Notes under the pieces: model-generated
What the model saw: the letters and a program-made list of their open reading frames with translations, nothing else
Databases searched by the model: none
Told to the model about the DNA's origin: nothing
NCBI GenBank assembly: GCA_018817515.1
Contig: JAHIUD010000032.1
Coordinates: 62,001 to 126,000 of the forward strand
Reading direction: 5' to 3'
Length of the DNA: 64,000 bases
Source: Pseudomonadota bacterium
GTDB taxonomy: Bacteria > Desulfobacterota > Desulfovibrionia > Desulfovibrionales > Desulfovibrionaceae
Shown: one piece after another, positions 10,714 to 31,230 of the stretch
How positions within the stretch are numbered: the stretch's first letter is position 1
Layout: each line of letters opens with the position of its first letter
Program-made: the position numbers and the translations under genes

Positions 10714-11664
<951 letters not shown>

Positions 11665-11678
11665 AAGGGCGCAAGGGC

Positions 11679-14035: not shown

Positions 14036-14055
14036 TTCCTGCCACGGAGACCACA

Positions 14056-15525: not shown

Positions 15526-15572
15526 TTCGGCCCCACCATAGGCGACCGACTCTCAGAAATATTGGAGGGACT

Positions 15573-16088
15573 ATGGAACTTCGCGTTGAAAAGACAAAGC
15601 TGGACGGAGTGCTGCTCATCAAGCCCGATACCTTTGAGGATTTCCGGGGCGAATACGTGGAGCTGTACAACCGCGAGCTGTACCAAAAGGCTGGCGTTGG
15701 CGTGGAGTTCGTGCAGGACGACATCTCCGTGTCGCACAAGAACGTGCTGCGCGGCTTCCACGGCGACCTCAAGACCACCAAGATGATCTCCTGCCTGTTG
15801 GGCCGCTTCTACATGGTGGTGGTCAACTGCGACAAGGACAGCGCGGGCTACGGCCAGTGGCAGGGCTTCACCCTGACGGAGAAGAACCGCTTCCAGGTGC
15901 TGGTGCCGCCCAAGCATGGCCTTGGCCACCTGGCGCTGACCGACCGCATCATCTTCCATTACAAGCAGAGCACCTACTACGATCCTGCCTCGCAGTTCAC
16001 CAGGGTCTGGAACGACCCGGAGTTGAACGTCTGGTGGCCGGTGAAGAACCCCATCCTCTCGCAGCGCGACGAGCAGGGCCACTGGTGA
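15573..16088 (+). CDS. dTDP-4-dehydrorhamnose 3,5-epimerase-like cupin (RmlC family)
   Basis: A 171-residue cupin of the RmlC family. It has the F-R-G-E-Y motif near 24, Q-D-D-I-S-V-S near 48 and the catalytic-His segment V-L-R-G-F-H-G near 58-64, where RmlC proteins have L-R-G-L-H-Y. Such enzymes invert C3 and/or C5 of 4-keto nucleotide sugars. Beside an SDR resembling GDP-heptose 4-dehydrogenase, it could be a GDP-4-keto-heptose 3,5-epimerase, as for Campylobacter Cj1430; this is inference. The GGAGGG site gives a clear start. It probably continues the operon into the transketolase pair. Confidence 0.8.
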   Translation: MELRVEKTKLDGVLLIKPDTFEDFRGEYVELYNRELYQKAGVGVEFVQDDISVSHKNVLRGFHGDLKTTKMISCLLGRFYMVVVNCDKDSAGYGQWQGFTLTEKNRFQVLVPPKHGLGHLALTDRIIFHYKQSTYYDPASQFTRVWNDPELNVWWPVKNPILSQRDEQGHW

Positions 16089-16095
16089 GGAACGC

Positions 16096-16947
16096 ATGGA
16101 CATAACGGCCATGAAGGAAAAATCACGCTGGGTCTGGCGCGAGACGCTCAAGATCCACAAGTTCTGCCCGGAGTCACGCATCGCGTCCTCGCTCTCCTGC
16201 GTGGAGATTCTGGTGGCGCTTTACTATGGCGGCGTGCTTAATTTTGATGCAAAACAGCCATTTAGTGAAGACCGCGATCGCCTGATCATCAGCAAGGGCC
16301 ACGGCTCCATCTCCTATTACCCGATTCTTGCGGACCTCGGCTTCATAGCCAAAAAGGAACTGGACGCGCCGGGCAGCCTGGACTCCAAGCTCAAGGCCAT
16401 CCCGGACACGCTCATCGAGGGTTACGAGACCATCAACGGTTCGCTCGGCCACGGCATAGGGGTCGGCATCGGCATGGCCCTGGGGCTCAAGGCCAAAGGC
16501 TCGGAGCGCAAGGTCTTTGTCCTGGTGGGCGACGGCGAGCTCAACGAGGGCTCCATGTGGGAAGCCATCATGCTCGCCGGGCACCACAAGCTCGACAACC
16601 TCTGCGTCATCGTGGATAAGAACAACCTGTGCATGCTCGACTACTGTCGCAATATTGTTGACTTGGAGCCCATTGAGGCCAAGTTCCAGGCCTTTGGCTG
16701 GGACTCGGTGACTGTAGACGGGCACGATGAACAGGCCGTGGCTGAAACGCTTACAGCCTTCAAGACCCGCAAGGCAGGTTCTCGAAGTCTTGTTGTGGTT
16801 GCGCACACAGTGAAGGGCAGGGGGGTCAAGTCCCTTGAGGTCGACAGCCTGTGCCACATCAAGAGCCTGAAGCCGGATGCCATTGACGAGCTTTTGAAGG
16901 CTGACGAGCTCTCGCATGCCCAGACTCGGCTTGGGGAGGGCGCGTAA
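16096..16947 (+). CDS. Transketolase N-terminal subunit (thiamine-diphosphate binding)
   Basis: A 283-residue protein covering the pyrophosphate-binding half of transketolase. It has S-K-G-H-G-S near 75, G-S-L-G-H-G-I-G near 115 and the ThDP motif G-D-G-E-L-N-E-G-S-M-W-E-A near 143, ending in K-N-N. With the next gene it forms a split, two-subunit transketolase. In this locus it may make sedoheptulose-7-phosphate, the precursor of activated heptoses, or a branched sugar; that link is inferred from position. The GAGGAA site precedes the ATG. Confidence 0.9.
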   Translation: MDITAMKEKSRWVWRETLKIHKFCPESRIASSLSCVEILVALYYGGVLNFDAKQPFSEDRDRLIISKGHGSISYYPILADLGFIAKKELDAPGSLDSKLKAIPDTLIEGYETINGSLGHGIGVGIGMALGLKAKGSERKVFVLVGDGELNEGSMWEAIMLAGHHKLDNLCVIVDKNNLCMLDYCRNIVDLEPIEAKFQAFGWDSVTVDGHDEQAVAETLTAFKTRKAGSRSLVVVAHTVKGRGVKSLEVDSLCHIKSLKPDAIDELLKADELSHAQTRLGEGA

Positions 16948-17886
16948 ATGGCTATCCCGACTAACATCATGCGCGAGGCCATGATCCTGCGTTTGCGCGA
17001 GCTGATGATTGAGGACGACCGCATCTTCTTCGTCTCCGCCGACTTCGGCGCCCAGTCCCTGGACGGCCTTCGCGAGGACTTTCCTGGCCGCTTCCTCAAC
17101 GTCGGCATCGCCGAGCAGAACTGCATCAACATCTGTACCGGCCTGGCGCTTGAGGGCTTCAAGGTGTTCGCCTACGGCATTGCGCCGTTCATCTCCATGC
17201 GCCCCTATGAACAGATCCGCATCAATCTGTCCCTGCTGTCGCAAACCCGGCCCATGAACGTCAACATCATTAGTGTTGGCGCCGGGGTGAGCTACGACGT
17301 CTCCGGTCCCACGCACCATTGCCTGGAAGACATCTCCGTGATGCGCACCCTGCCGCACATGCGCGTGTTCTCGCCTTGTGACGCCGCCTGCGCGGCCCAG
17401 TTCGTTGATTATGCCCTGGCTACGTCCGGCCCGAAGTACATCCGCCTGGACGGCAAGGCCTTGCCCGGCGTGTACGCCGAGCGGACTGCGGACTTTGCCA
17501 AGGGGTTTGCGGAGCTGCGCCACGGCAGTGATGTCTGCATCATCGCTACAGGCGTCATGACGCATACGGCCCTTGAAGTGGCTGAACGCCTGCCCGGGAA
17601 GGTCGGGGTCATCGACGCCTTCCTGCTGGACAACCTGGATGAGGCGGCCCTGGCAGAGTGTCTGCGCGGCTATGCGCGCGTGGCCACCCTGGAGGAGGCG
17701 TTCATCGGCTGCGGCGGGCTGGACAGCTTGGTCTCATGCGTGTTGGAGCGGCAGAACCTGCCGGCCAGGCAACAACGATTTGGCTTCCAACGCGGGTATA
17801 ATTTTGATAATGGAGGTCGCCTGCACTTGCACAGAAGTGTCGGCATCGACACAGACTCCCTGGCGCGCAGCCTGGCCAATACTTAA
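16948..17886 (+). CDS. Transketolase C-terminal subunit
   Basis: A 312-residue partner of the preceding gene with the pyrimidine-binding domain. The catalytic Glu lies in V-G-I-A-E-Q-N near residue 52. The Y-D-V-S-G-P-T-H-H segment and a C-terminal transketolase domain from about residue 190 follow. The ATG directly follows the TAA of the N-terminal subunit, so equal expression is likely. Split transketolases are common in polysaccharide and secondary-metabolite clusters. Confidence 0.9.
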   Translation: MAIPTNIMREAMILRLRELMIEDDRIFFVSADFGAQSLDGLREDFPGRFLNVGIAEQNCINICTGLALEGFKVFAYGIAPFISMRPYEQIRINLSLLSQTRPMNVNIISVGAGVSYDVSGPTHHCLEDISVMRTLPHMRVFSPCDAACAAQFVDYALATSGPKYIRLDGKALPGVYAERTADFAKGFAELRHGSDVCIIATGVMTHTALEVAERLPGKVGVIDAFLLDNLDEAALAECLRGYARVATLEEAFIGCGGLDSLVSCVLERQNLPARQQRFGFQRGYNFDNGGRLHLHRSVGIDTDSLARSLANT

Positions 17887-17903
17887 CCCTTGGATGGTTC
17901 TTC

Positions 17904-18611
17904 ATGAAAGTTACGCTGCTTATGCCTGTTCTGAACGAACGGGAGAGTATGGAAGTCATAATGCCCCAGATCGACAGATCCTGGGTACACCAGATACTCA
18001 TCGCCGACGGCGGTTCCACCGATGGAACCATTGAATACTGCAAGGAACACGGCTACGAACATTTCGTGCAGAAGATTCCGGGCATTCGTCAGGCCTACAA
18101 TGAGGCGCTGCCGCTCATCACAGGCGACGCCATCATCACCTTCAGCCCCGATGGCAACTGCATCCCCAACGACATTCCGCCCCTTATCAAGATGTTTGAG
18201 GACGGTAAGTACGACATGGTCATCGCCTCGCGCTATTTCGATGGCGCCAAGAGCGAGGACGACGATTTCATCACGACCATCGGTAACTGGATCTTCACCA
18301 CCTCGTGCAACCTGATGTTCGGGTACAAGTACACCGACTGCATGGTCATCTACCGCATCTACTGGAAACAGATGATCTATGACCTGGAGCTGGACAAGGA
18401 CAAATGGTACAGCACGTTTGAGAAACTTTATTGCACTCGCCTGAGCTGGGAACCCATGCTCTCTGCCCGCGCGGCCAAGCGCAAATATAAGATCGGAGAG
18501 ATGCTGGGTTTTGAACCCGCCCGCATCGCCGGCGTACGTAAGTTGCAGATCATCCGCTGGGGACTTGGCTACTACAGCCAGTTCATCCGTGATTGGCTGT
18601 TCTGGAAATAG
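17904..18611 (+). CDS. Family 2 glycosyltransferase
   Basis: A 235-residue GT-A glycosyltransferase without membrane helices. The nucleotide-sugar site is seen in M-P-V-L-N-E-R near 7, A-D-G-G-S-T-D-G-T near 34 and F-S-P-D-G-N (about 81-86, in the DxD position). The acceptor and donor are unknown; a heptosyl or other sugar transferase to a lipid carrier or glycan is possible, as is a polyprenyl-phosphate sugar synthase lacking the membrane tail. It is the last GC-rich gene of the heptose core; composition changes sharply right after it. Confidence 0.85.
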   Translation: MKVTLLMPVLNERESMEVIMPQIDRSWVHQILIADGGSTDGTIEYCKEHGYEHFVQKIPGIRQAYNEALPLITGDAIITFSPDGNCIPNDIPPLIKMFEDGKYDMVIASRYFDGAKSEDDDFITTIGNWIFTTSCNLMFGYKYTDCMVIYRIYWKQMIYDLELDKDKWYSTFEKLYCTRLSWEPMLSARAAKRKYKIGEMLGFEPARIAGVRKLQIIRWGLGYYSQFIRDWLFWK

Positions 18612-18653: not shown

Positions 18654-19199
18654 ATGTCGGTTGGTATATACAATCCTGTGGCCACACTCCTCGATAAGGC
18701 TTTGCATGCACTGTTCTGGACTTTGTACGGATTTATCAAGTACATCCCCCCCCCTCTTGGGGATATTTTGCGCTCTCTGTTTATTCGCATGTTTTCTCAC
18801 AAGTTCAATGCATGGCACGTTCGAGAAGGGATTAGCATATGGTATCCCTGGCGTTTAGCCGTAGGGAAATATTCAACACTCAACGACTACATTTGGATCA
18901 ATGCATCCGGCGGTGTTGAGATAGGTGAGGGTGTACAGATTGGGGCAAGGGTTTCCATTGTCAGTGACAGCCACATCTATCAAAATACTGAAGTTCCTGT
19001 GTTTCGTCAGGGCAAAGACAATGCTCCAATCCGTATCGGCGATGATGTCTGGGTTGGAATTAATGTTACGATTCTCAAGGGGGTGACCATCGGCAAAGGG
19101 GCTATTATCGGCGCAAACGCCCTTGTGAACAAAGACATTCCAGAGTTTGCCATTGCAGCTGGAATACCAGCCAGGATCATTGGCCATCGTGGTACATAG
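18654..19199 (+). CDS. Hexapeptide-repeat acyltransferase
   Basis: A 181-residue left-handed beta-helix acyltransferase. Hexapeptide repeats run from about residue 70 to 170 (V-E-I-G-E-G-V-Q-I-G-A, I-R-I-G-D-D-V-W-V-G, V-T-I-G-K-G-A-I-I-G-A), ending with the A-G-I-P-A-R-I-I-G motif of the maa/WbbJ group. The candidate catalytic His is in D-S-H near residue 104. It probably O-acetylates a sugar. The GGAG site precedes the ATG. It opens the long AT-rich tract. Confidence 0.85.
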   Translation: MSVGIYNPVATLLDKALHALFWTLYGFIKYIPPPLGDILRSLFIRMFSHKFNAWHVREGISIWYPWRLAVGKYSTLNDYIWINASGGVEIGEGVQIGARVSIVSDSHIYQNTEVPVFRQGKDNAPIRIGDDVWVGINVTILKGVTIGKGAIIGANALVNKDIPEFAIAAGIPARIIGHRGT

Positions 19200-19255
19200 C
19201 CTCATTCGCTGTGCTTGTTGACTTAAAATATAAACATTTTGCAAAGTTGTGTACA

Positions 19256-20713
19256 ATGAAAATACTGCTAATTAATCCTCCAGACGACCTTTTCGAGGTT
19301 ATAGGTGGGGGTGAAGTCTTTATTTCAAACATGGAACCGCTTGGTATCCTTTATATCGCTGCTGTTTTACGCGAAGGCGGTCATGATGTTGCGGTCATTG
19401 ATGCTTACGCTGAGAGACTAACCCAGGCAAAGTTGGAGACGCGGATACTAGAGTGTTGTCCACAGATGATCGGTTTCACTTGCTTCACCTCAAATGGTGG
19501 AATTGTCTATAATTTCTGCAAAAATCTAAAGTCAAAACATCCCAATATTACGATAGTTCTTGGAAATGTCCATGCGTCTGTATTTGCTCGACAATACCTT
19601 TTGAATGGTTGCTGTGATTACGTCATCCATGGCGAAGGGGAGTACCCTATGCTGCAACTTGCGGATGCAATCAGCAACAACCTACCGATTACGGATGTTC
19701 CAGCTTTGTCTTATGTCGTTAATGGAGTCGTGGAGACAACGTCTGATCCTTATTATATTAAAGACATAAGTGTCGTTCCCATGCCAGCACGAGATTTAGT
19801 TCGTCAAGATTTATATAACATCAAACAGATTAATAATTTTTCACTACATAATTATGGCAACAATAAATCTAGAAAACACATGTTTACATCACGAGGTTGC
19901 CCGAACAGATGCACATTCTGCACTGTACATCATAGCATAAAGCAACGGTTTAATACTGTTGAGCAGTCTCTTGATGAGGTTGAGACTCTAATTAATGACT
20001 ACAATGCTGGTTATATATTTTTTACAGACTCATTATTTGTTGGAAAGAAAAAGCGTGTTTTGGAGATATGCAAAAGAATTCGTGAAAGAAAGCTCGACTT
20101 CAAATGGGGCTGCGAAGCTCACGTTAAATTTATTGATGAAGAAATGCTTCTGGCCATGGAAGAGGCTGGCTGTGTGGACCTTGATTTCGGTCTTGAATCC
20201 GGAGTCGACCGCTTGCTGATAGAAATCGGGAAAAAATTTACATCTGATGATGCGTTAAACGTCATTAGACTTGTAAAGAAAACAACTAAAATCCATGTAA
20301 CTGGGTTATTCATCCTCGGTCTCCCTGGTGAGACACTTCAGGAGACAAAACAAACCATACAACATGCAACTCAGCTACCTCTGGATATGGCCCAATTTAC
20401 GATTTTAACTCCCTTCCCAGGGTCACAAATATTTGACGAATTGTCTGGACGGGGTGAAATCGATACAGGGATTAGGCCTGGAGACAAACTCGACACTGAC
20501 GTATGGCATCGCTACTCATCATATATTTCTTACACTGATAAAAAGCCGATATGGGTAACACCAGAACATACGGCAGATGGTTTAAAAGGTTTACAAAAGT
20601 ATGCGCTTAGACGATTCTACTTTCGTCCATACGCCTTTTGGCAACAGTTGAAGCGTATTCGCCTCTCCAATTTGCCACACATGATAAAGGCTGCATGGGA
20701 CACTTTTATATAA
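19256..20713 (+). CDS. B12-binding-domain radical SAM protein
   Basis: A 485-residue protein of the cobalamin-binding radical SAM type. The N-terminal 150 residues form a B12-binding-like domain starting M-K-I-L-L-I-N-P-P-D. The radical SAM cysteines are C215, C219 and C222 (G-C-P-N-R-C-T-F-C), followed by G-L-E-S-G-V-D-R-L and F-I-L-G-L-P-G-E-T. The ATG at 19256 is used because the family sequence begins there; an upstream start at 19211 adds 15 unrelated residues. The ribosome-binding site is poor. The substrate is unknown; it shares its AT-rich composition with the next gene and may act with it. Confidence 0.8.
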   Translation: MKILLINPPDDLFEVIGGGEVFISNMEPLGILYIAAVLREGGHDVAVIDAYAERLTQAKLETRILECCPQMIGFTCFTSNGGIVYNFCKNLKSKHPNITIVLGNVHASVFARQYLLNGCCDYVIHGEGEYPMLQLADAISNNLPITDVPALSYVVNGVVETTSDPYYIKDISVVPMPARDLVRQDLYNIKQINNFSLHNYGNNKSRKHMFTSRGCPNRCTFCTVHHSIKQRFNTVEQSLDEVETLINDYNAGYIFFTDSLFVGKKKRVLEICKRIRERKLDFKWGCEAHVKFIDEEMLLAMEEAGCVDLDFGLESGVDRLLIEIGKKFTSDDALNVIRLVKKTTKIHVTGLFILGLPGETLQETKQTIQHATQLPLDMAQFTILTPFPGSQIFDELSGRGEIDTGIRPGDKLDTDVWHRYSSYISYTDKKPIWVTPEHTADGLKGLQKYALRRFYFRPYAFWQQLKRIRLSNLPHMIKAAWDTFI

Positions 20714-20741
20714 CATGTCAACACTAGGAATAGGTTGAGTC

Positions 20742-23237
20742 GTGGGACAAGAGAAAAGAGTAGCCTTCATCGTTACAAGCTATGGATATGCGGAGCCCTT
20801 TGGGGTTATGCATTTGGCGACCATTGCCAAGAATGAAGGGTGGACTGCGAAGCTGTTCCAGACTGCTGTAGACTCACAGGAAGATGTCGTAAAATTTTGC
20901 CCTGATGTTTTGGCATACAGTGTGTTATCATCCCAGCAGGACGAAATACTTTCCTTTAATCGCGATCTTAGAAAGCACATAAATGCCGTGAGTATTATGG
21001 GTGGACATCACCCAACCTATTTTCCAGAAGTTGTTAATGACCCTCATCTTGACTTGATCTGCATTGGCGAAGGTGAGCAAGCTTTTTTGGATTTTCTTAG
21101 ACATTATGACGACCCCACCTCTTGGGATTTAATCAATAATCTGACTACATACCCACGTATACCTACATTAAATAGATTGATTACAGACTTTGACTCGATC
21201 GGTTGTCCAGACCGCGAGATAGTTTACTCGAACCCTTGGATCGCAAGACAGAAGATGAAGTCCTTCTATGCAACAAGAGGCTGCCCATTTAACTGCACAT
21301 ATTGCATGAATCACTCTTTCAACAACATGTACAAGCACAACGGTCCTTTTGTACGTAGACGCAAGGTCGATCATATCATTAATGAAATTATCTATGTGCG
21401 TGATCGTTGGCCTTTAGAATTTTTAAGATTTAATGATGATTGCTTTGCTCTTGTCGCAAATGACTGGCTTGAGGAATTTTGCGACAAATATCCGAAGATC
21501 ATAAATTTACCTTTTTGGGTCCAAGTGCGTCCTGACGTTGTCAAGGAGGATGCCCTAAGGCTTCTTAAAAATGCGGGGTGTCATGTCGTCGGCACTTCAA
21601 TTGAATCCGCAAACCCAGAAATTCGTAAGAAGATATTACGTCGCGGTGACGATAATAATGCTTTACGAAATGGTTTTTCTACAATGCGTAAGCTAGGATT
21701 AAAAACACAAACTAATTGCATTTTCGCATTGCCAGGTGCAACACTTGATGATGACAAGGCCAGCATTGACTTTATGATTGAGAACCGTATCGATTTGTTT
21801 TCGACTACCATATTCCAGCCTTTTCGTGGGACTGATATTTATAAGTATTGTGTTGAGAATAACCTTGTTGGCGAGAACATTGCAGAATATTTTCCAACAT
21901 CAAACTGGAATATGTCTGTCTTAAATTCCTACTCTGAACGCGACAGACGTTTTCATTATAACCTCACGAGGTTCACTCCCCTTATTGGACTGGCGCCATG
22001 GCTTAAGAAGCTTTGCTATCAACTCTGTGTATTGCCTCCTAACATCTTTTTTGACATAGTATTCTACATTTCGAGGCATGCAGCTTGGAAAAAAGTCATC
22101 CCCATCCGATTGAGCTGCGCGGACATAATTGGCTTTGTAATAACATCTTTGCGATTACATTTTATTAAGCAAACAAAGAAATCCTCCACGGTTTCCTTGA
22201 CGAGCAAAATTTATAAGCTTTTTCTGTCTTTGTCTTTAAAAGCGTCTTTTGCATTTCGTTTGCTAAAGACTGGAAAAATATCCTTACGTAAAGTTTATGT
22301 CCTGATAGCTAATATTTTACATCATTTTCGAAGGAGCGAGTACTCGTCGACCACTCCGAGTGTATTGATCCTCGATGTAACGAATAGATGCAATCTTCAT
22401 TGTCGTGTTTGCCGGCATTCGCAAACTGAAATACTAGATCTTCTTGGTGATGAAAATTCAGATAAAATTCCTTTAGGTATGATGTCTTATGATTTGTTCC
22501 TGAATATTATTGATCAGTCAGCAAAAGACGTTTTCTTTGTTCTGCTTTATCTCTCCGGTGAGCCCTTGCTCAATAAAGATGTGGAGAAAATGGTTCTTAA
22601 AGCTTCATCATCTAAGGTTGCGACCATTCTTGCTACAAACGGCATGCTTTTGACTGAAGATGTAGCGCAAAATCTGTTTGAAGCTGGTTTAGACTATCTC
22701 AAAGTCGCGATTAGTGGCATGACACAAGACGTTTACTCTAAAGAACATCGTGGTGGAATCATTGATCTTGTCAAGAACAACTTATCAACTGCCGCACGAG
22801 TACGAGACGAAATTTGTGCCTCTACCGTAATTGTGATGGACTATATTGTGTATGAGCACAATGAGCATCAGGTTGACTTGGCCAAGGCTTTTTGTCGCGA
22901 AAATAATATTATGATCTCGCTTCGCAAGGGTCTTATTCGAAATGAAGCTGACGGATTCACACCTTCTAGCTATGGTAAGATAAGTATGTCTACAGTTCTG
23001 TGCGACTGGTTATGGAAGATCATGAGTATCGGATGGGATGGCTCCGTTTTACCTTGCTGTGAGTATGCGTTTACGTCTAAGAAAATAGTTCTTGGTAATG
23101 TTAACAAGGAAAGCATTCAAGATATATGGAATGGGAAGAAGTATATAGCATATCGTCAGGCTCATCTTAGAACTGGTCGCTCAAGTTACAAAATGTGTAA
23201 TGGATGTCATTACGACGGCATTGATTTTCAGGGATGA
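20742..23237 (+). CDS. Double radical SAM fusion protein (B12-type radical SAM plus radical SAM/SPASM-like)
   Basis: An 831-residue uninterrupted frame with two radical SAM modules. The first, residues 1-430, has a B12-binding-type domain, the cluster cysteines C181, C185 and C188 (G-C-P-F-N-C-T-Y-C) and G-T-S-I-E-S-A-N-P-E. A hydrophobic and basic linker spans about 430-535. The second module has C550, C554 and C557 (N-R-C-N-L-H-C-R-V-C) and a Cys-rich C-terminal SPASM-like part (L-P-C-C-E near 773 and C-N-G-C-H near the end) that may bind extra clusters. Each half resembles a free-standing enzyme. The start is GTG with a weak site. The stop overlaps the following methyltransferase (ATGA). 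Function unknown. Confidence 0.82.
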   Translation: MGQEKRVAFIVTSYGYAEPFGVMHLATIAKNEGWTAKLFQTAVDSQEDVVKFCPDVLAYSVLSSQQDEILSFNRDLRKHINAVSIMGGHHPTYFPEVVNDPHLDLICIGEGEQAFLDFLRHYDDPTSWDLINNLTTYPRIPTLNRLITDFDSIGCPDREIVYSNPWIARQKMKSFYATRGCPFNCTYCMNHSFNNMYKHNGPFVRRRKVDHIINEIIYVRDRWPLEFLRFNDDCFALVANDWLEEFCDKYPKIINLPFWVQVRPDVVKEDALRLLKNAGCHVVGTSIESANPEIRKKILRRGDDNNALRNGFSTMRKLGLKTQTNCIFALPGATLDDDKASIDFMIENRIDLFSTTIFQPFRGTDIYKYCVENNLVGENIAEYFPTSNWNMSVLNSYSERDRRFHYNLTRFTPLIGLAPWLKKLCYQLCVLPPNIFFDIVFYISRHAAWKKVIPIRLSCADIIGFVITSLRLHFIKQTKKSSTVSLTSKIYKLFLSLSLKASFAFRLLKTGKISLRKVYVLIANILHHFRRSEYSSTTPSVLILDVTNRCNLHCRVCRHSQTEILDLLGDENSDKIPLGMMSYDLFLNIIDQSAKDVFFVLLYLSGEPLLNKDVEKMVLKASSSKVATILATNGMLLTEDVAQNLFEAGLDYLKVAISGMTQDVYSKEHRGGIIDLVKNNLSTAARVRDEICASTVIVMDYIVYEHNEHQVDLAKAFCRENNIMISLRKGLIRNEADGFTPSSYGKISMSTVLCDWLWKIMSIGWDGSVLPCCEYAFTSKKIVLGNVNKESIQDIWNGKKYIAYRQAHLRTGRSSYKMCNGCHYDGIDFQG

Positions 23238-23992
23238 GTATGGATTTGCGCGATTTAACGTTTTCTTATTATGTACGAAGGTTGAGCAGGAAAACTCTTC
23301 CCGACTCAATCCTGTCCGGAAATGTAGTAGAATTAGGTGCAGGCATTGACAATTACTCTACACTATTTGAAGCCAATCGTTATACAGCTGTTGATGTTTG
23401 GCGTCCCGCCCAGAGGGTAGAATATTCCTTTGTTCAAGCGGATATCTGTTTATTACCTTTTGGCACTAACGCTTTCGATTATTTCATAGCATCTAACGTT
23501 CTCGAGCATATTAAATCTCCAGGTGATGTGCTAGAAAGACTCTATTCCATCTGTTCAGGCGGAGGATATATTGTTGTTCCTGTTAACGGTAAATTCCCAT
23601 TTATCTATGATCCAATCAACTGGATACGTAAGCGCCTAGGGTTACCAATTTGCAACTTTGGCATTGGGGGCTTTGGTCATGTCTCATTATTGTCAGAAGC
23701 TGAATGGGAGAATCTTTTTTCAAAGAATAACTTTACAATAGTTAGCAAGTCGTACATGCACATGGACGCATGGTCTTGTATTGAGTTTTTCGTATTCAGC
23801 ATTTTCTTTTCAAGAAAAGAGTACGTCACTTTGTGCAATAGTAATGCAAAGGTTGGTAATTTTAATTTTTTGGCTAGACTTTTATATTTTATTCAGAAGG
23901 TTCAAGCACCGATCTTCAGATTCCTGAAAGCAACTTCTTGGTCCCCGTCCGGATATATATGTGTTTCTTATACGTTAAACAAACGCATTTGA
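23234..23992 (+). CDS. SAM-dependent methyltransferase, class I
   Basis: A 252-residue methyltransferase. The SAM-binding motif I is V-V-E-L-G-A-G-I-D near residue 31, an acidic residue follows in Y-T-A-V-D-V, and the later D-Y-F-I-A-S-N-V-L-E-H motif is typical of the Methyltransf_11/25 group. The C-terminal third is hydrophobic (F-F-V-F-S-I-F-F near 187), hinting at membrane contact. The start overlaps the double radical SAM gene by 4 bases, so the two are translationally coupled and may act on the same molecule. Confidence 0.8.
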   Translation: MSMDLRDLTFSYYVRRLSRKTLPDSILSGNVVELGAGIDNYSTLFEANRYTAVDVWRPAQRVEYSFVQADICLLPFGTNAFDYFIASNVLEHIKSPGDVLERLYSICSGGGYIVVPVNGKFPFIYDPINWIRKRLGLPICNFGIGGFGHVSLLSEAEWENLFSKNNFTIVSKSYMHMDAWSCIEFFVFSIFFSRKEYVTLCNSNAKVGNFNFLARLLYFIQKVQAPIFRFLKATSWSPSGYICVSYTLNKRI

Positions 23993-24032
23993 ATCGTATT
24001 GCACACTATGCAACGATAGAGGTAAGCATACA

Positions 24033-24992
24033 ATGGACAGGCCTATTGTTTCTATCATTTCTCCGATTTTCAATGAGCTTGATAATATAAAACCATTTTA
24101 TACAAAGATCAACAATGTTTTGCATGGTCTAGTTGAACCCTGCGAAGTAATTTTCGTTAACGATGGCAGTACTGATGGAAGCATTGATTACTTGAAAGAG
24201 ATTGCTTCACGAGATCCGCGTGTAAAAGTTATCAGCTTTACACGGAATTTTGGGCAAACCCCAGCAATAATGGCTGGTATTGAACATGCTCAAGGGGATT
24301 TGATCGTTACAATTGATTCAGATCTACAGAATGATCCCGAAGATATCCCTCTGATGATCGAATTGATTAAAGACAATAAGGTTGATGTCGTATCTGGCTG
24401 GAGGAATGATCGCAAGGATCATACATTAACAAGACGTATACCATCTTTTTTAGCGAACAGACTCATCTCATGGTTAACTGGCATAAAACTTCATGATTAC
24501 GGATGTTCATTAAAGATTTATCGAGCCGATGTTTTGAAAAAGGTAAACTTATACGGTGAGCTGCATAGATTCATTCCAGCTCTTGTGGCCCAGGCAGGTG
24601 GCAAGATTATGGAGGTCAAGGTTCGACACCATCCACGTTCCTCTGGTAAATCAAAGTACGGACTAGAAAGAGTTATAAAAGTGTTTTTTGACCTTTTTCT
24701 TTTAAAGTTCTTGTCTGGATATTCCACACGTCCTATTCACTTTTTCGGTCAATTTGGACTTGCTGCTTTCTTCGTTGGATTTTTATTGGCAACATACGTT
24801 GCTTGGTTAAGAATTGTGCAGGATATTCCTGGTGTTAACCTAATTACATATCTGATTCTTGCAATGCTATTTCTTCTTGTAGGTGTCCAGACAATACTGA
24901 TGGGGCTTCTTGGTGAGATTGGGATTCGCACATACCATGAGTGCCAACATACTAAAAAGATCTATGTTATTGAAGAAATTTTCCCCGGATAA
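24033..24992 (+). CDS. GtrB/DPM1-like family 2 glycosyltransferase with two membrane helices
   Basis: A 319-residue enzyme predicted to load a sugar onto undecaprenyl phosphate. The catalytic GT-A domain spans 1-225 with V-N-D-G-S-T-D-G-S near 44 and the metal site D-S-D-L-Q-N-D-P near 95. Two helices follow (about 236-258 and 266-292), the architecture of GtrB/ArnC-type polyprenyl-phosphate glycosyltransferases. Und-P-sugars are donors for GT-C enzymes in the periplasm, and a GT-C-like protein is encoded at 27453. The AGAGGTAAG site precedes the ATG. Confidence 0.88.
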   Translation: MDRPIVSIISPIFNELDNIKPFYTKINNVLHGLVEPCEVIFVNDGSTDGSIDYLKEIASRDPRVKVISFTRNFGQTPAIMAGIEHAQGDLIVTIDSDLQNDPEDIPLMIELIKDNKVDVVSGWRNDRKDHTLTRRIPSFLANRLISWLTGIKLHDYGCSLKIYRADVLKKVNLYGELHRFIPALVAQAGGKIMEVKVRHHPRSSGKSKYGLERVIKVFFDLFLLKFLSGYSTRPIHFFGQFGLAAFFVGFLLATYVAWLRIVQDIPGVNLITYLILAMLFLLVGVQTILMGLLGEIGIRTYHECQHTKKIYVIEEIFPG

Positions 24993-25012
24993 TATTGCAT
25001 AAGGGACTTTAT

Positions 25013-26896
25013 ATGTGTGGAATTTGCGGTAGCTGCGGCTCAGGTTGCATTGAAACTATACAGCATATGGCTACTGCCCTTGCCCATAGGGGGCCAGATG
25101 AATTTGGTTTTTGGTACGAGAATAGTTGCAATTTGCATTTTGGACATAGGCGCCTTAGTATTGTTGATATCGACGAAGGGAAACAGCCCATGCGCACAGT
25201 TGATGGCAATCTGTGTGTTGTATTTAACGGTGAAATATACAATCATATTGAATTAAGAAGATACTTGGAATCTCGTGGATATTCATTCATAACTGACCAC
25301 TCTGATACTGAGGTTTTATTGCATGGTTACCGTGAGTGGGGAGTCGAACTTTCCAATAAACTTAATGGAATGTGGGCCTTTGCCATATTTGACAAAATAA
25401 ATAATGTAATTTTTTGTAGTAGAGATCGATTTGGCGAAAAACCTTTTTACTACTCATATCAAAATAATACTTTTGCTTTCTCTTCTGAACTGTTTTCATT
25501 GCAACAACATCCTAGTATAGATTGTCGTCTGTCTATGCCAGCCCTTCAAAAATATTTTGCTTACTGTTTTATCCCGGCACCGAATACTGTTTTCGTGAAC
25601 ATTTTTAAACTCCAAGCTGGTCATGATTTAGTTTTTAATGTGTATGATCGTTCCATCAAGTTAAGGGAGTACTGGGAGTATCAGCCAGATCCATTCATTA
25701 ATATTCCACATTGCCCTGAGGAGGAATGGGGGGGGCAACTCAAAGAGCTAATTGACCGCTCAGTCAAGAATCGAATGGTTGCAGATGTGCCAATAGGAGT
25801 ATTTTTAAGTGGTGGCATAGATTCATCAATTATCTCTGGGCTTGCCTCTAAATCTTTACCGCCTGGTCAGTTGAAGACCTTTTCGATAGGTTTTCAGAAC
25901 TCTTCGTTTGATGAATCCCAATACGCAGACATCGTTTCTAAGCACTTTGGTACAGACCATCATTGTCGTATGTTCTCAATGACGGACACTCTTGATATTA
26001 TACCAGAAGTATTAAGAAAGACCGATGAGCCGATGGGGGACAGTTCAAACTTCCCTTTCTATCTTCTTTGCTCTGAAGCACGACGGAAAGTCAAAGTTGT
26101 ACTTTCTGGAGATGGAGCTGATGAACTATTCGCAGGTTATGACCCGTTCAAAGCTTTGTCACTATCGTACGCTTATCAGAAATATGTACCGCGTAGTGCT
26201 CATAGTAGTATTTTAAAGATTGCCTCACTGCTACCTGTTGGTCATAAGAATATGACTTTTTCTTTCAAAATGACAAAAACGCTATCAGCTCTATCACGCG
26301 ACAATCGTTATTGGAACCCAATATGGCATGGATCTCTAACACCAGAAGATATATCAGATTTATTTTCTACTAAAATTCGCGATGAAGACATTTTCTCTGA
26401 GGCAATTACATACTGGGCTAACTGCTCTTCGGACAATATTGTGGATCAAACTATACAGTTTTACATAAAGCTGTATCTTCAAGATCGAATACTCGTGAAA
26501 AGTGATAGATACAGCATGCTCCACGGCTTAGAAGTGCGTTCGCCGTTTCTGGATTACGATTTGGTTGATTTTGTGCGTAAAATTCCTTGGCAGTTCAAAA
26601 TGAAGGGCAATATGCAAAAGCATATACTAAAGATGGCTTTTACAAGCCTCTTACCACATGAGATAATTTTTAGAAAAAAGAAGGGATTTGGTTCACCTGT
26701 TGGGCGTTGGTTCAAGGATAGAGTCATAGCACTGCCTCCGATGAAGGGCCTTCCTTTTATTAATCATAACGTTGTAGCTACAAAAGTAAAACGACATTGT
26801 TCTGGTAACGAAGACAACAGGCTTTTTTTGCTTAATGTCTTATTTCTAACTTCTTTTATAGATAGGTTTAATTTGAACGGTAAGGAGCGTTATTAA
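25013..26896 (+). CDS. Asparagine synthase-like glutamine amidotransferase
   Basis: A 627-residue AsnB-family enzyme. Cys2 of M-C-G-I-C-G is the N-terminal glutaminase nucleophile and fixes the start at 25013. The class II amidotransferase domain covers about 2-215 (H-R-G-P-D-E, F-N-G-E-I-Y-N-H). The synthetase domain has the ATP loop S266-G-G-I-D-S-S and S-G-D-G-A-D-E-L-F-A-G. In glycan loci such enzymes are thought to amidate sugar carboxylates or other acids rather than make free asparagine. Position favours this, but plain asparagine synthesis cannot be excluded. It is followed by a 556-base gap. Confidence 0.88.
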   Translation: MCGICGSCGSGCIETIQHMATALAHRGPDEFGFWYENSCNLHFGHRRLSIVDIDEGKQPMRTVDGNLCVVFNGEIYNHIELRRYLESRGYSFITDHSDTEVLLHGYREWGVELSNKLNGMWAFAIFDKINNVIFCSRDRFGEKPFYYSYQNNTFAFSSELFSLQQHPSIDCRLSMPALQKYFAYCFIPAPNTVFVNIFKLQAGHDLVFNVYDRSIKLREYWEYQPDPFINIPHCPEEEWGGQLKELIDRSVKNRMVADVPIGVFLSGGIDSSIISGLASKSLPPGQLKTFSIGFQNSSFDESQYADIVSKHFGTDHHCRMFSMTDTLDIIPEVLRKTDEPMGDSSNFPFYLLCSEARRKVKVVLSGDGADELFAGYDPFKALSLSYAYQKYVPRSAHSSILKIASLLPVGHKNMTFSFKMTKTLSALSRDNRYWNPIWHGSLTPEDISDLFSTKIRDEDIFSEAITYWANCSSDNIVDQTIQFYIKLYLQDRILVKSDRYSMLHGLEVRSPFLDYDLVDFVRKIPWQFKMKGNMQKHILKMAFTSLLPHEIIFRKKKGFGSPVGRWFKDRVIALPPMKGLPFINHNVVATKVKRHCSGNEDNRLFLLNVLFLTSFIDRFNLNGKERY

Positions 26897-27452
26897 ATTT
26901 TCAACATACAATCACATTCATACTTTTATGTAACGGATTATTGGCAGGACAATCTGAGTTGAGGGAGTACGTTTAACTCTACAACAGTTTTGACCTCACA
27001 CTTAGCCAGATGGCTGTGTGGATAAGTCAGTGAAGTGACCAATCTGATCTTTACTGACGAGATTAAACTTAGAGGGGGCGCGTGGCTTACAGATCGCCAA
27101 CGTACTAGATCATCTTTAAAGACATAATCGAAAAGACGAGTGACACCTTTTACCCAAGCTGCATCTGTGCTCGCCGTTGGACAAAGTCCAAGCCCAGGGC
27201 ACTGTTATCCACTGGAATATTTGACCCGTTCTCACAACGTTAGGCATAACTGACAAATCGTGATCGGCGTAGGTTATAATAGAAGAGTAATCCCCCTCCC
27301 GCCATCAAGTCATAGCAAAAAGCCGTATGTTGTATTTAGTCGATCGCGCAGACAAAAGTATAAGCTGGAGCTAATTTTCTAGAGTGTTGCGACACGTTAC
27401 CTCTGGCATGTTTTGTGCGATAGTATAAAAGCTTAACACTTTTGAGGCAGTA
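26897..27452 (+). other. Intergenic stretch of 556 bases without a recognisable gene
   Basis: No start-to-stop gene of convincing length was found on either strand. It holds a hairpin at 26997-27020 (CACAC-TT-AGCC with GGCT-GTGTG), a tight inverted repeat at 27177-27191 (TTGGAC-AAA-GTCCAA), and a minus-strand stop-free stretch of 88 codons (27204 to 26938) without a usable start. It is less AT-rich than its flanks and may be a degraded gene or mobile-element scar. Confidence 0.5.
27404..27418 (+). promoter_or_regulatory. Candidate sigma54 (-24/-12) promoter
   Basis: TGGCATG-TTTT-GTGC has GG and GC exactly 10 bases apart, close to the TGGCAC-N5-TTGC consensus. A transcript would start near 27430, upstream of the GAGGCAG ribosome-binding site and the ATG at 27453. 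The -12 box has one mismatch. Confidence 0.35.
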
Positions 27453-29165
27453 ATGCTTACTCGTATATTCCTTGCTAAGCCAGCAATGAAAAATAAGCTT
27501 GACAAATGTCAAAAAAGACTTTGCTTAAGTTTAAACAATCATCCTAACGCTTATGCACTATTATCCCTGTCGGCAATAGCAGGCCTAGGGCTATACGTCA
27601 GGTTTTCGATGCTTTCTTCTGTTGGCCTTCTTGATGGAGATGATTTTTTCTATGTAAAATGGGCATATTTATGGCTCAGTGGGGACTTCAAGCTCTTTGG
27701 ATTATACAGAATAGCAAACGCTATTCTTGGAGCAATTGCATTACGACTATTCGGAGTTAATGACTATAGCATTCATTATTTTGTCGCATTATTCGGGACT
27801 ATCAATATCGTTATTGGCTACTGTCTTTCTGTATTGGTTACAAGATCTAGAGTCGTCTCTCTTGCGCTAGTTTTAATACACTGTTTATCTCTAAGAGTTG
27901 TTGAGGTTGATCGAACACTGATACCGTACACTTTTACTGAGACTTTTTTTTTAATTTCTTGTGTATTTTTCATACTACATTTACGGGTCAACGTTTCAGT
28001 AAATTTACGGAACAGATATTTCGCATTGGTTTATATTTCCCTGTCAGGCTTGTTTTTGAGTTTTTCAGCACATGCACATTGGGAGATAGCTTGCCACGCC
28101 GTTCCCATGGCAATATTGATACTTATGCATGGGTACTTTTCTAAAGTGGGCTCTACTAGATTTTCATCACTTTCATCCATGATTTTCTGTGTCTCTTTCT
28201 GGGTTCCCATACTTATAGGGGTTTATATTTTTTCAGGCAATGTCGTTTTTCATGGGATATTCAATGTCAACTCAACATTGCACGCAATGGCAACAATAAG
28301 TTCATTTTCAATATCGAGATATATAAATGAATACCTGTCACTATATAAAGCAGTGGTGAGCGCAAACACTGGTTCATATATTCTAGGCATAATGTTTTTC
28401 TTAAACTCAATGCATCTACTATATTTGATATGTAAGACATCATTGTTCAAGTTTTCGAGCCATATATCTAGGATTCAAATGCTTTGCTGTGTATACTTCA
28501 TGGTACTTATTTGGTTCTATATTTTATCAATGCGCGTTTTGAATTTTGACTCATTCATAAGAAATTGGCATGCTCAACATCTCACAGTCATCGTTTTGGT
28601 ATTTACATTTACTCTTTTATCTTCATTGCTAAATGCAGTATTTCCAAATCCGAAATCAACCGCACGCTATGTTTTTTTACTATTACTGATTGCTGTATTT
28701 GTACAAAGCCAACCGCTTGAAGCATTCACAGCAAGATTTCATCATCCTACTTCATACAGAATCATGGGGGACGTTCTTTCCTCCCGTGTGAGTGCGAAGG
28801 ATCGTGTTCTAGTCGCACCGTATCTTGTCCTTGATTTTCGTTATCAGACATTGACCCCACCGAGCTATTTGTCCAAGGAATATGTTGACCATATATTTGA
28901 GTACACATCAGATCTACCGCTTCGTATACAAATACAGAAACACGGCATTAGATATTTTGTAGACGCTAAACAGCTTATTCATAATAATGCAGATGATCAG
29001 GTCGGAGTAAAATCCAATTTAGGTAGAGTATACGACATTGATCCTAATGAATACTCCTTGGAAATTGAATACGCTAGAATGAAAGAATATTTGCGCGAAG
29101 TAAATGCAGTCATGATATTTAGTTCTGATAAAATTGATATTTATGACCTTAAGTCGGGTACGTAA
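27453..29165 (+). CDS. Polytopic membrane protein, probable GT-C fold glycosyltransferase
   Basis: A 570-residue protein with about ten hydrophobic helices between residues 33 and 430 and a soluble C-terminal part of about 130 residues. An acidic motif, L-L-D-G-D-D-F-F-Y, follows the first helix, where GT-C enzymes (PMT/ArnT type) place their catalytic Asp. The layout matches undecaprenyl-phosphate-sugar-using transferases that act on the periplasmic face. The GtrB-like enzyme at 24033 could make its donor. The start is ATG after GAGGCAG. It is very AT-rich. Family placement rests on architecture rather than on a unique motif. Confidence 0.6.
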   Translation: MLTRIFLAKPAMKNKLDKCQKRLCLSLNNHPNAYALLSLSAIAGLGLYVRFSMLSSVGLLDGDDFFYVKWAYLWLSGDFKLFGLYRIANAILGAIALRLFGVNDYSIHYFVALFGTINIVIGYCLSVLVTRSRVVSLALVLIHCLSLRVVEVDRTLIPYTFTETFFLISCVFFILHLRVNVSVNLRNRYFALVYISLSGLFLSFSAHAHWEIACHAVPMAILILMHGYFSKVGSTRFSSLSSMIFCVSFWVPILIGVYIFSGNVVFHGIFNVNSTLHAMATISSFSISRYINEYLSLYKAVVSANTGSYILGIMFFLNSMHLLYLICKTSLFKFSSHISRIQMLCCVYFMVLIWFYILSMRVLNFDSFIRNWHAQHLTVIVLVFTFTLLSSLLNAVFPNPKSTARYVFLLLLIAVFVQSQPLEAFTARFHHPTSYRIMGDVLSSRVSAKDRVLVAPYLVLDFRYQTLTPPSYLSKEYVDHIFEYTSDLPLRIQIQKHGIRYFVDAKQLIHNNADDQVGVKSNLGRVYDIDPNEYSLEIEYARMKEYLREVNAVMIFSSDKIDIYDLKSGT

Positions 29166-29166
29166 A

Positions 29167-30045
29167 ATGTTGAAGTATATATATTACTGTTGCATATTGT
29201 CTTTAGTCTTCTGCTTATTTTCTTGTACTAATGACAATGGTAATTTACTGCTTAATAATGATTCCAAAAAATCTATCACTACAAAAGTAGTACCTAGTAA
29301 ATTCGAGTATTTTGATAATTCTATAGGCATCCGTTTTGTTCGTATCCCTTCCGGCAAATTTTATATGGGTCAACAGATCGAGAAAGGAGGGTTACCAGAT
29401 GAGTCTCCAATTTTCGAACACGCAATCACAGCTCCATTATATTTTGGTGAGTGCGAGATCACACAACGTCAGTGGTTAAGAGTAATGAAGAAAAATCCAA
29501 GTTTGTTTCAAATCAAAAACATCAACAGGTTAATTAATGCGTACAACTCTGCAGTTGCTAGCAAAATTACATATGATAACCCTGTTGATAGTGTTAGCTG
29601 GGAGGAAGCTAAGATCTTTATTTTGCGTCTAAACAAACTTGACAAACATTGGAAATATAGATTGCCTACAGAGGCAGAGTGGGAGTATGCAGCCAAGGCC
29701 GGAGCTGATCGCTATTATTTCCTTTCAAATGAAAACAGGTGGCCCGTACGAACAGACACAATATCGCTTTATAGCTCGATGCGTGGCGGTGTAACATTTG
29801 CTGCAAAAAGTTTTACTCCGAACAACTGGGGTATTTATGATATGGATGGAAATTTGAGAGAGTGGTGTGAAGATACCTATAATTCTTACGGTCATGATTG
29901 GACAGTTAAAAATATGCGTGTAAATCGTGGTCCTTGTTGGATAGATCCACAGAACATGCGTATAGCCCAACGATATTGCAACTTTGAAAACACTAAAAGT
30001 CCATTCATAGGGTTTCGTATTGTTGCAGAAAGGACAGCAAATTAG
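29167..30045 (+). CDS. SUMF1/FGE-fold lipoprotein
   Basis: A 292-residue predicted lipoprotein. From the ATG at 29167 there is a short basic start, a hydrophobic stretch and a lipobox ending L-F-S-C near residue 19. Residues 45-290 form a formylglycine-generating-enzyme-like domain: I-P-S-G-K-F-Y-M-G, E-C-E-I-T-Q-R-Q-W, N-P-V-D-S-V-S-W-E-E-A, Y-R-L-P-T-E-A-E-W-E-Y-A, G-N-L-R-E-W-C and G-F-R-I. The two catalytic cysteines of true FGE are not in their expected places (R-G-P-C-W replaces R-G-G-S-W), so it is more likely a binding or structural member. It starts one base after the GT-C-like gene and probably works with it at the envelope. Confidence 0.8.
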   Translation: MLKYIYYCCILSLVFCLFSCTNDNGNLLLNNDSKKSITTKVVPSKFEYFDNSIGIRFVRIPSGKFYMGQQIEKGGLPDESPIFEHAITAPLYFGECEITQRQWLRVMKKNPSLFQIKNINRLINAYNSAVASKITYDNPVDSVSWEEAKIFILRLNKLDKHWKYRLPTEAEWEYAAKAGADRYYFLSNENRWPVRTDTISLYSSMRGGVTFAAKSFTPNNWGIYDMDGNLREWCEDTYNSYGHDWTVKNMRVNRGPCWIDPQNMRIAQRYCNFENTKSPFIGFRIVAERTAN

Positions 30046-30117
30046 ATTTCAATGTAGCTAGATTGTCTGGTCTATTACTTTTGGGCATACTTTAACAGTA
30101 TAGAACGAGAGCAAAAC

Positions 30118-31230
30118 ATGAAAACAACGGATTTAAGTATATTAACTTGCTTAGAATGTCGTGGTGATATTTCTTTTCAGCGCGGGGTGGTGACTGAGAG
30201 TATTATAGACCATGGCATTCTAGAGTGTTCAAAATGTGGCACACTGTACCCAGTAATTGACACAGTGGCCATTATGTTTAAAAAAGAAATAGCTCTTTTG
30301 CATCTATGTGATGATGAGCTTAATTTCCTTCGTACTCATGGTTATGAGGAGTGTATCCCGGCAGCTTTTGATGTTGAAGAGGAATATTTAAAACAGGTTG
30401 AAGTAGCAAGCAATTGGGAATACCAATGGACAAAACAATACAACTATTCGAATGAAGATTTTTCTAAAAACTATTTCCTCTCAGAGGAAATGTTTTACGA
30501 ATTTATACCTTTAAGCTATTCTGATGTTTTTGATAAGGATGTTTGTATCATTTGTTCGGGTAAAGGTCGCGAAGCGCACAACATTCTATTACGGAAACCA
30601 GCTAGAGTCGTTTGTTGTGAGATTGGATCAGAAATTTATCAAACACGCCATGTAGTTGCCAACAAAGATCTGGTATTGATTAAATCAGATGCCATGGATA
30701 TCCCCTTGAAAGATAATGCCATGGGTCTTGTTCTTTGCGATCATGCTTTGCAACATGTCCTAGACCATCGTAGGGCATATTCTGAGATGTCGCGAGTGGC
30801 ATCACCTCATGGTGTAGTTTGTATCAACGTTTACAGTCTTGAGAATAACTTTATCATGACCAAACTAGTTGACCCCTCAAAGTTTATTATTCACAAGCTC
30901 CCTTTATCTTTTATAAATTACCTATCCATTCTTCCTGCAATACTTGTTTATATTGCTATTTACTGCCTATACGTACCTGCTAACAAGATTTCAAAAAAAG
31001 TAGCAAGTTTTTTACCATTGAACGACCACATGATATATTGGTCCAAGTATAATAGCTTCAAAACAATTTGGACTTGGTGCTTTGATTTGATCCATGCACC
31101 TATTTCTTATCATTTTTCGAAGGATGAAGTGATGGCTCTCGCTTTCGAAAACAATCTAAAGTTGAGATTCGTTGAAAACATTCATGGTACTACATGGACA
31201 ACAATAGCCGAAAAATATTCCCCATCTTGA
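30118..31230 (+). CDS. SAM-dependent methyltransferase with N-terminal zinc ribbon
   Basis: A 370-residue protein. The first 55 residues resemble a Trm112-like zinc ribbon (C-L-E-C near 11-14, C-S-K-C near 37-40, then G-T-L-Y-P-V-I). A class I methyltransferase fold follows from about 140, with C-I-I-C-S-G-K-G-R-E-A as the SAM loop, V-C-C-E-I-G, and V-L-C-D-H-A-L-Q-H-V-L. Two hydrophobic segments around 258-290 suggest membrane association. It is the last gene of the AT-rich tract and converges on the YfhO-like gene. The acceptor may be a sugar or lipid; unknown. Confidence 0.75.
   Translation: MKTTDLSILTCLECRGDISFQRGVVTESIIDHGILECSKCGTLYPVIDTVAIMFKKEIALLHLCDDELNFLRTHGYEECIPAAFDVEEEYLKQVEVASNWEYQWTKQYNYSNEDFSKNYFLSEEMFYEFIPLSYSDVFDKDVCIICSGKGREAHNILLRKPARVVCCEIGSEIYQTRHVVANKDLVLIKSDAMDIPLKDNAMGLVLCDHALQHVLDHRRAYSEMSRVASPHGVVCINVYSLENNFIMTKLVDPSKFIIHKLPLSFINYLSILPAILVYIAIYCLYVPANKISKKVASFLPLNDHMIYWSKYNSFKTIWTWCFDLIHAPISYHFSKDEVMALAFENNLKLRFVENIHGTTWTTIAEKYSPS

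Follow-up and report, generated by a model that had tools for sequence, protein, structure and literature searches.

Two radical S-adenosylmethionine (SAM) domains in one chain are already described for FbiC, the FO synthase, which uses two separate deoxyadenosyl radicals to make one product and which has two-gene versions elsewhere (PMC11917521). MJ0619 (GDGT-MAS) contains two CxxxCxxC motifs and was once proposed to run two reactions (PMC5943407); its structure has one radical SAM core together with auxiliary-cluster domains (PMC9433317). We analyzed a 64,000-nucleotide stretch of a Desulfovibrionaceae genome (positions 62,001 to 126,000 of contig JAHIUD010000032.1, assembly GCA_018817515.1), referred to as the window, and describe a gene at 20742-23237 of its + strand in which a B12-binding/radical SAM enzyme is joined in frame to a radical SAM/SPASM enzyme. 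Its product, referred to as the query, resembles FbiC in having two cores per chain and two-gene versions elsewhere, and is a real fusion of two known enzyme kinds whose combination is new to the literature searched.

A first-pass annotation, made from the sequence alone, had stated that such a fusion is not a described family. This stands for the particular combination: a fusion of B12/radical SAM with radical SAM/SPASM was not found in open-licence literature, searched mostly at the level of listings, and the part of PMC13331322 consulted contains no mention of two-core fusions. It does not stand for two cores in one chain as such, given FbiC (PMC11917521).

In the reading that we prefer, to which we assign a probability of about 0.55 on the basis of sequence and models, the query would be a bifunctional sugar-tailoring enzyme in which two complete radical SAM enzymes, fused in frame, carry out two radical steps on one glycan. 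The architecture, the fusion point, an independent second fusion, split pairs and a glycan-type setting are directly observed. The case is strongest in the recurrence of the pairing, which takes three forms: two fusions, overlapping genes, and genes of one operon. Because split pairs recur and the second fusion is independent, two successive steps on one substrate are plausible, and the two enzyme types probably work as partners on the same sugar.

Architecture of the fusion protein

The fusion gene is one open frame of 831 residues running from GTG to TGA. Its parts are as follows.

20742..23237, + strand: fusion gene, B12-binding/radical SAM enzyme plus radical SAM/SPASM enzyme (open frame, Pfam)
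20742..21104, + strand: Rossmann-type B12-binding domain, residues 1-121 (PF02310; predicted local distance difference test score, pLDDT, of the model 81-96 per ten-residue block)
21261..21926, + strand: first radical SAM core, residues ~174-395, cluster C181/C185/C188 (PF04055; fold nearest AprD4)
21936..22178, + strand: basic hydrophobic helical tail of the first enzyme, residues 399-479 (standalone relatives carry this tail and end in or near it)
22200..22346, + strand: basic hydrophobic helical head of the second enzyme, residues 487-535 (similar N-terminus in L039:8251-9276 and L061:2698-3771)
22359..22850, + strand: second radical SAM core, residues ~540-703, cluster C550/C554/C557 (second PF04055 stretch; model of this half alone)
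23001..23210, + strand: SPASM domain, residues 754-823 (PF13186; C-x17-C...C-x2-C spacing as in BtrN)

Pfam places a B12-binding domain (PF02310) at residues 9-117 (47.4 bits, cut-off 32.1), two Radical_SAM stretches (PF04055; 113.8 bits for the whole protein, cut-off 29.5) and a SPASM domain (PF13186) at residues 754-823 (63.0 bits, cut-off 21.5). Each half has a CxxxCxxC motif inside its Radical_SAM domain, C181/C185/C188 in the first and C550/C554/C557 in the second; the former is invariant in 8 aligned first-half sequences, query included, and the latter in 14 aligned second-half sequences. Both motifs thus lie within full cores, in which the query differs from MJ0619. The two complete radical SAM centres proposed in the first-pass annotation are borne out by the motifs, by Pfam and by the fold of the second module. 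That module, which the annotation had allowed might turn out to be a non-enzymatic domain, is a full radical SAM core as judged by Pfam and by its modelled fold.

Against NCBIfam, none of the best 25 of 86 models reaches its own cut-off, TIGR04295 (B12_rSAM_oligo) among them, and the top score is 84.5 bits. No CofG or CofH model is among these best 25 of 86, which separates the query from FbiC; FbiC presumably also has neither a B12-binding nor a SPASM domain. With its N-terminal B12-binding domain, the first half is of the predicted cobalamin-dependent (class B) type. The full SPASM type is defined by seven or more cysteines that hold two auxiliary clusters. Residues 754-823 of the query contain five (754, 772, 773, 819 and 822), below the at least seven of the full type, and this number fits one auxiliary cluster rather than two. 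A chain would be predicted to carry three clusters, two of the radical SAM kind and one auxiliary, and perhaps cobalamin as well.

For the first half, AprD4 ranked first in a profile search against solved structures (E 1e-33) and was also the best fold match of the model (PDB 6fd2; Z 30.1, 401 residues, root-mean-square deviation (rmsd) 3.4), followed by OxsB (Z 28.9) and MgmA (Z 28.3). AprD4, the nearest solved relative by both measures, acts on a sugar: it is the radical SAM diol dehydratase of apramycin and, together with a partner reductase, removes an oxygen from a pseudodisaccharide (PMC5461906). GenD1 and GenK, both of which methylate aminoglycosides, are radical SAM enzymes that depend on cobalamin (PMC5461906). 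The first half nevertheless differs from AprD4, scoring 56.8 bits against a cut-off of 500 for the AprD4-type diol dehydratase equivalog NF033070 and so falling outside it; its motif is CX3CX2C, the aligned AprD4 stretch is CX3CX3C, and AprD4 is unfused.

In the whole-chain model the second half was poor, being covered by one other fusion only (L095, described below) after misaligned second-half rows had been dropped, and this half was then modelled alone. BtrN (PDB 4m7t), which we take to be 2-deoxy-scyllo-inosamine dehydrogenase, came first both in the profile search against solved structures (E 4.9e-13) and in a Foldseek search of the model; VIA-align gave DesII Z 22.2, BtrN Z 22.2 (227 residues, rmsd 2.7) and BlsE Z 21.7. 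The C-x17-C...C-x2-C spacing is common to the query (754, 772, 819, 822) and the BtrN fragment (189, 207, 252, 255), in which these four cysteines presumably bind the auxiliary cluster. Differences from BtrN are an identity of 23% over the fold alignment, an extra helical head and the fusion to another enzyme. DesII, the radical SAM deaminase of thymidine diphosphate (TDP)-desosamine synthesis, and BlsE, the cytosylglucuronate decarboxylase, are tied with BtrN in fold and have sugars as substrates, but they are 15-19% identical to the second half and each has a single radical SAM core. Because the nearest solved relatives of the two halves act on sugars or cyclitols, we infer that one step oxidises a C-OH carbon or brings about an elimination there, and that the same glycan undergoes a further radical change.

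The fusion point is marked by standalone relatives. Those of the first half are separate proteins, mostly of 450-550 residues, and their similarity stops at query residue ~480; similarity to those of the second half starts at query residue ~495-497, in proteins of 341 residues (L039:8251-9276, genome G116) and 357 residues (L061:2698-3771, a Geobacteraceae metagenome-assembled genome). Separate lengths add up to nearly that of the fusion, 486 aa (genome G301) and 341 aa (G116) giving 827 against 831. The assembled sequence has no in-frame stop between the halves, a point on which the first-pass annotation had made its proposal depend, and the remaining frames are rich in stops. As no ATG or GTG occurs in frame between residues 391 and 580, where there are TTG codons only, the second half is unlikely to have a start of its own.

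Of the "hydrophobic basic linker" described in the first-pass annotation, the basic hydrophobic stretch was recovered and the joining linker was not. By sequence comparison, the central stretch is the tail of the first enzyme followed by the head of the second, with no separate part. A dedicated linker domain was considered and rejected, such helices being present in standalone relatives of both halves. Counting K+R against D+E, query residues 395-484 have 14 vs 4 and residues 485-535 have 10 vs 1; over their final 80 aa, seven separate first-half relatives have 12-18 vs 1-6. Heads of separate second halves have 12 vs 4 (first 75 residues, L061) and 13 vs 3 (first 59 residues, G116), and more distant ones 7 vs 3 (G299) and 3 vs 3 (G099). 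The basic character of the query linker therefore comes from the separate enzymes, each of which has a basic helical end. Structure prediction, which the annotation had suggested for this region, gave helices in the tail (399-479), with confidence dropping after about residue 460, and low to middling confidence in the head (487-535).

Fused and split relatives

The annotation had also suggested searching the halves separately and looking for the same fusion and for split neighbouring genes. All of these were found: standalone relatives of each half as above, a second fusion (L095), 24 pairs among 90 frames on viral-labelled contigs, and bacterial pairs at L326, L170 and L061.

The second fusion was found among loci fetched with the first-half profile, on contig IMGVR_UViG_3300032053_009940, which is viral-labelled (here and below, in the labels of the source collection) and has a G+C content of 24% over the 14.5 kb read. 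Its 849-residue frame (L095:265-2814) contains, by Pfam, a B12-binding domain, two Radical_SAM stretches and SPASM in the same domain order as the query. It aligns to query residues 43-822 in a single match (23% identity, pairwise E 3e-51) and has the same cysteine pattern, the SPASM C-x17-C and C-x2-C included. Its neighbours are two further B12/radical SAM genes, and nearby lie genes for proteins resembling mannose-6-phosphate isomerase (29.8 bits, cut-off 23.6) and a methyltransferase (25.3 bits, under the cut-off of 27); the surroundings are glycan-like, as are those of the query.

The L095 fusion differs from the query in its acidic linker and in its origin. Two neighbours on its own contig share 61% and 67% identity with its first half, and in a tree of 25 first halves these three group together (100/99); the query is placed there with seven unfused proteins in a group of eight (98/98). 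In a tree of 14 second halves, weakly resolved with 1 of 11 inner branches starred, that one branch unites the query with the unfused L061 and G116 proteins (100/99). Because of the contig-neighbour identities and these trees, the two fusions are, at the level of sequence, independent in origin, and a single ancient fusion common to both was rejected on the same grounds.

Searches for further fusions covered several collections. A two-row profile of both fusions (E 1e-70) matched in 0/3, 2/12, 36/63 and 2/2 genomes, with no match spanning both halves; five of its long-open-frame matches were inspected, and one region was taken whole (L326). The 325 fetched loci (2.53 Mb, overlaps included) contain no third frame of at least 550 codons with two CxxxCxxC motifs more than 200 residues apart. 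A viral scan with the query returned no relative, and one with the L095 fusion returned L095 alone. At 80% coverage, plasmid records gave 0 of 117 and 0 of 143 matching records, and phage records 0 of 4 and 0 of 4. The second half alone matched in 2 of 297 genomes (its own and G116; E 1e-40) and in 4 of 40 (E 1e-20); at E 1e-50 it matched in 1 of 12 (G116) and 1 of 199 (its own). Two narrow second-half patterns, run on genome contigs of 84,980 species, found one locus only, L061, and others may have escaped such patterns.

Split pairs recurred on viral-labelled contigs. Among 90 distinct B12/radical SAM frames, 24 are accompanied by a second-type frame on the same strand at a distance of no more than 1 kb; in 13 of the 24 pairs the frames overlap, six in fusion order and seven in reverse order. 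The counts show recurrence, not a rate: some members of the counted set had gone into the profiles, several pairs come from contigs that are closely similar, judged by their lengths and gaps (L242, L244, L246, L256, L266; also L245, L247, L248), and the second-type frame is in some cases weak or unusual (L133, 196 aa, 30 bits; L289, 507 aa, 47 bits; L280, with the 763-aa triple fusion described below). The L095 fusion, which appears again as L231, is outside the 90. Pfam found radical SAM plus SPASM in all seven second-type frames tested (L081, L108, L114, L116, L118, L120, L128).

Another viral-labelled contig (IMGVR_UViG_3300037493_005911) encodes a 763-residue frame (L082:705-2996) that combines a glycosyltransferase-type sugar-binding region, a methyltransferase and radical SAM/SPASM, one base upstream of a B12/radical SAM frame. 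This triple fusion, which unites activities of the kinds encoded in the window, favours a functional connection of such methyltransferases with second-half enzymes.

In bacteria, the pair at L326 is spaced by 12 bases and adjoins an O-antigen ligase-like gene; its second gene matches Radical_SAM and not SPASM, and this locus was chosen for its long-looking open frame rather than at random. L170 has an ABC-2 transporter gene, a first-half gene, a Wzt ATPase gene and a second-half gene in a row. At L061 the second-half gene lies 96 bases ahead of a B12-type radical SAM gene whose B12-binding score, 30.6 bits, is under the cut-off of 32.1. By profiles, a second-type frame occurs somewhere in 14 of 41 bacterial loci, L326 included among the 41, mostly in non-adjacent positions. 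As a separate observation, tblastn with the window proteins revealed arrays of six, five and four B12/radical SAM-type genes at the bacterial loci L161, L166 and L168.

The glycan-type island

The genes adjoining the fusion gene, and the island that holds them, are listed below.

18654..31230, + strand: low-GC glycan-type island holding the fusion gene (G+C profile; differing gene content in congener L174)
19211..20713, + strand: separate B12-binding radical SAM gene, 28 bases upstream of the fusion gene (PF02310, PF04055)
23234..23992, + strand: class I SAM methyltransferase gene, overlapping the fusion gene stop by 4 bases (PF13489, PF08241)
24033..24992, + strand: glycosyltransferase family 2 gene, downstream of the fusion gene (PF00535, 120.4 bits)

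Measured per kilobase, G+C content is 37-42% between 19 and 31 kb and about 51% at either edge, against 57-69% across most of the remaining window. Upstream, at 10726-18611, is a sugar cassette comprising an epimerase, an NTP-transferase/HAD protein, a GHMP kinase, a B12/radical SAM protein, a deoxythymidine diphosphate (dTDP)-sugar isomerase-like protein, a split transketolase and a glycosyltransferase. In the congener L174 the fetched part of this cassette is 83-95% identical and is followed by other genes, among them a separate first-half relative (28%), with no second half in the stretch read. The island is variable and glycan-type. Genome G116 (L039) has the cassette at 36-62% identity together with a separate second half, and no first half of the query type in the stretch read; separate first halves adjoin such cassettes in L147, L149 and L167 (genome G277), the last of which, like L039 and L174, has most or part of the window's cassette. 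The presence of separate halves beside such cassettes links each half independently with sugar loci of this kind.

The 4-base overlap with the methyltransferase gene reported in the first-pass annotation is ATGA, with the ATG at 23234 and the stop ending at 23237; a functional meaning for it is suggested below.

Several other features of the region were recorded. The transketolase pair next to a radical SAM gene may point to an uncommon sugar, perhaps a branched one, and a literature search on the identity of the sugar cassette found nothing relevant. The island also encodes an asparagine synthase-like amidotransferase (24995-26896), 48% identical to one in L171 (genome G028) that lies near a separate first-half relative, and a formylglycine-generating-enzyme-like (FGE-sulfatase) protein (29134-30045), with a 37% relative in the congener's island. 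A 556-base gap separates two genes at 26897-27452 in an otherwise tightly packed island. Promoter and terminator scans of the island gave 42 vs 39.7 (shuffled) and 10 vs 9.2 (shuffled), respectively, showing no excess.

Competing explanations and implications

Under the two-step sugar-tailoring reading, the C-terminal half, BtrN/DesII-like with one auxiliary-cluster site, would generate a 5'-deoxyadenosyl radical and with it oxidise or open a C-OH position on a sugar carried by a nucleotide or lipid. A second radical modification of this glycan would fall to the N-terminal half, which resembles AprD4 and the cobalamin-dependent radical SAM enzymes; it would be C-methylation if cobalamin is bound, and dehydration or epimerisation if not. 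The basic helical ends may hold the enzymes at the membrane, and in the query the central basic helices would keep the fusion enzyme at the inner membrane, the site of lipid-linked glycan synthesis. The coupled methyltransferase would then finish the product, which may be the functional meaning of the gene overlap. With both activities in one chain, their ratio would be constant and the intermediate would have less far to travel. A broader version, which we put forward tentatively and as clearly less probable than the two-step proposal itself, is that the query is a founding tandem radical enzyme for surface sugars, in which a cobalamin-dependent core would pass an intermediate to or from a BtrN-like dehydrogenating core at the membrane and whose partner types recur as gene pairs in bacterial and viral-labelled glycan-type clusters.

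Several results weigh against the two-step reading. In a whole-protein search of 59 relatives, 395 phylum genomes and 297 order genomes (overlapping samples; in the 395 and 297 sets scoring was limited to the top two or three candidates of each genome), only the query's own copy spans both halves; matches occurred in 11 of 59 (E 1e-40), 25 of 395 (E 1e-60) and 6 of 297 genomes (E 1e-75), all single-half except that of the window itself. By tblastn (E 1e-6), a second-half match is present in 8 of 40 first-half loci and absent from the stretches read in the other 32, and second halves also occur without a first half (L039). The substrate could be other than a sugar: the peptide-modifying SuiB is close behind in the fold of the second half (Z 21.0), and B12-domain radical SAM enzymes also modify proteins, as MgmA does (PMC11796369). 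Finally, one of the four separate second-half heads (G099) is not basic, and the L095 linker is acidic (29 D+E, 16 K+R) whereas that of the query is basic; membrane attachment is therefore not general.

The explanation that best survives beside the preferred one is a chance tether, in which two neighbouring glycan genes became one frame through loss of the in-frame stop that separated them, while their products remain uncoupled, working on different substrates or positions. The near-equality of the fusion length with the sum of the separate proteins (827 vs 831), the lack of a close fused relative among the genomes searched with the whole protein, and the finding of each half without the other in stretches read are all as this explanation would have it. 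Against it, an independent second fusion with the same domain order and the recurrent overlapping pairs point to a functional tie, and we regard chance tethering as unlikely, if the foremost of the rivals.

We consider it quite improbable that one half alone is catalytic and the other a binding or electron-transfer module. The history of MJ0619 offers a precedent (PMC5943407, PMC9433317), but here both halves have a Radical_SAM Pfam stretch and a radical SAM fold model, and both CxxxCxxC motifs are intact and invariant in the aligned relatives (8 and 14 sequences). An assembly or sequencing artefact, with a base error masking a stop or frameshift between two ordinary adjacent genes, is very unlikely: the assembly is a draft of 114 contigs, but the fusion gene lies well inside its contig (82742-85234 of C87), no ATG or GTG occurs in the 188 codons before residue 580, and an independent fusion with the same layout exists (L095).

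Polysaccharide clusters often contain B12/radical SAM genes, and the reaction is known for few of these. A natural fusion identifies the partner, indicating which second radical enzyme works with which first, and both halves point to sugar chemistry, one being AprD4-like and the other BtrN-like. The fusion thus offers one protein and one glycan to study, and the same guess can be applied to the split pairs. If it is true that both steps act on one sugar, the query would be a two-radical tailoring machine beyond the FO-synthase type.

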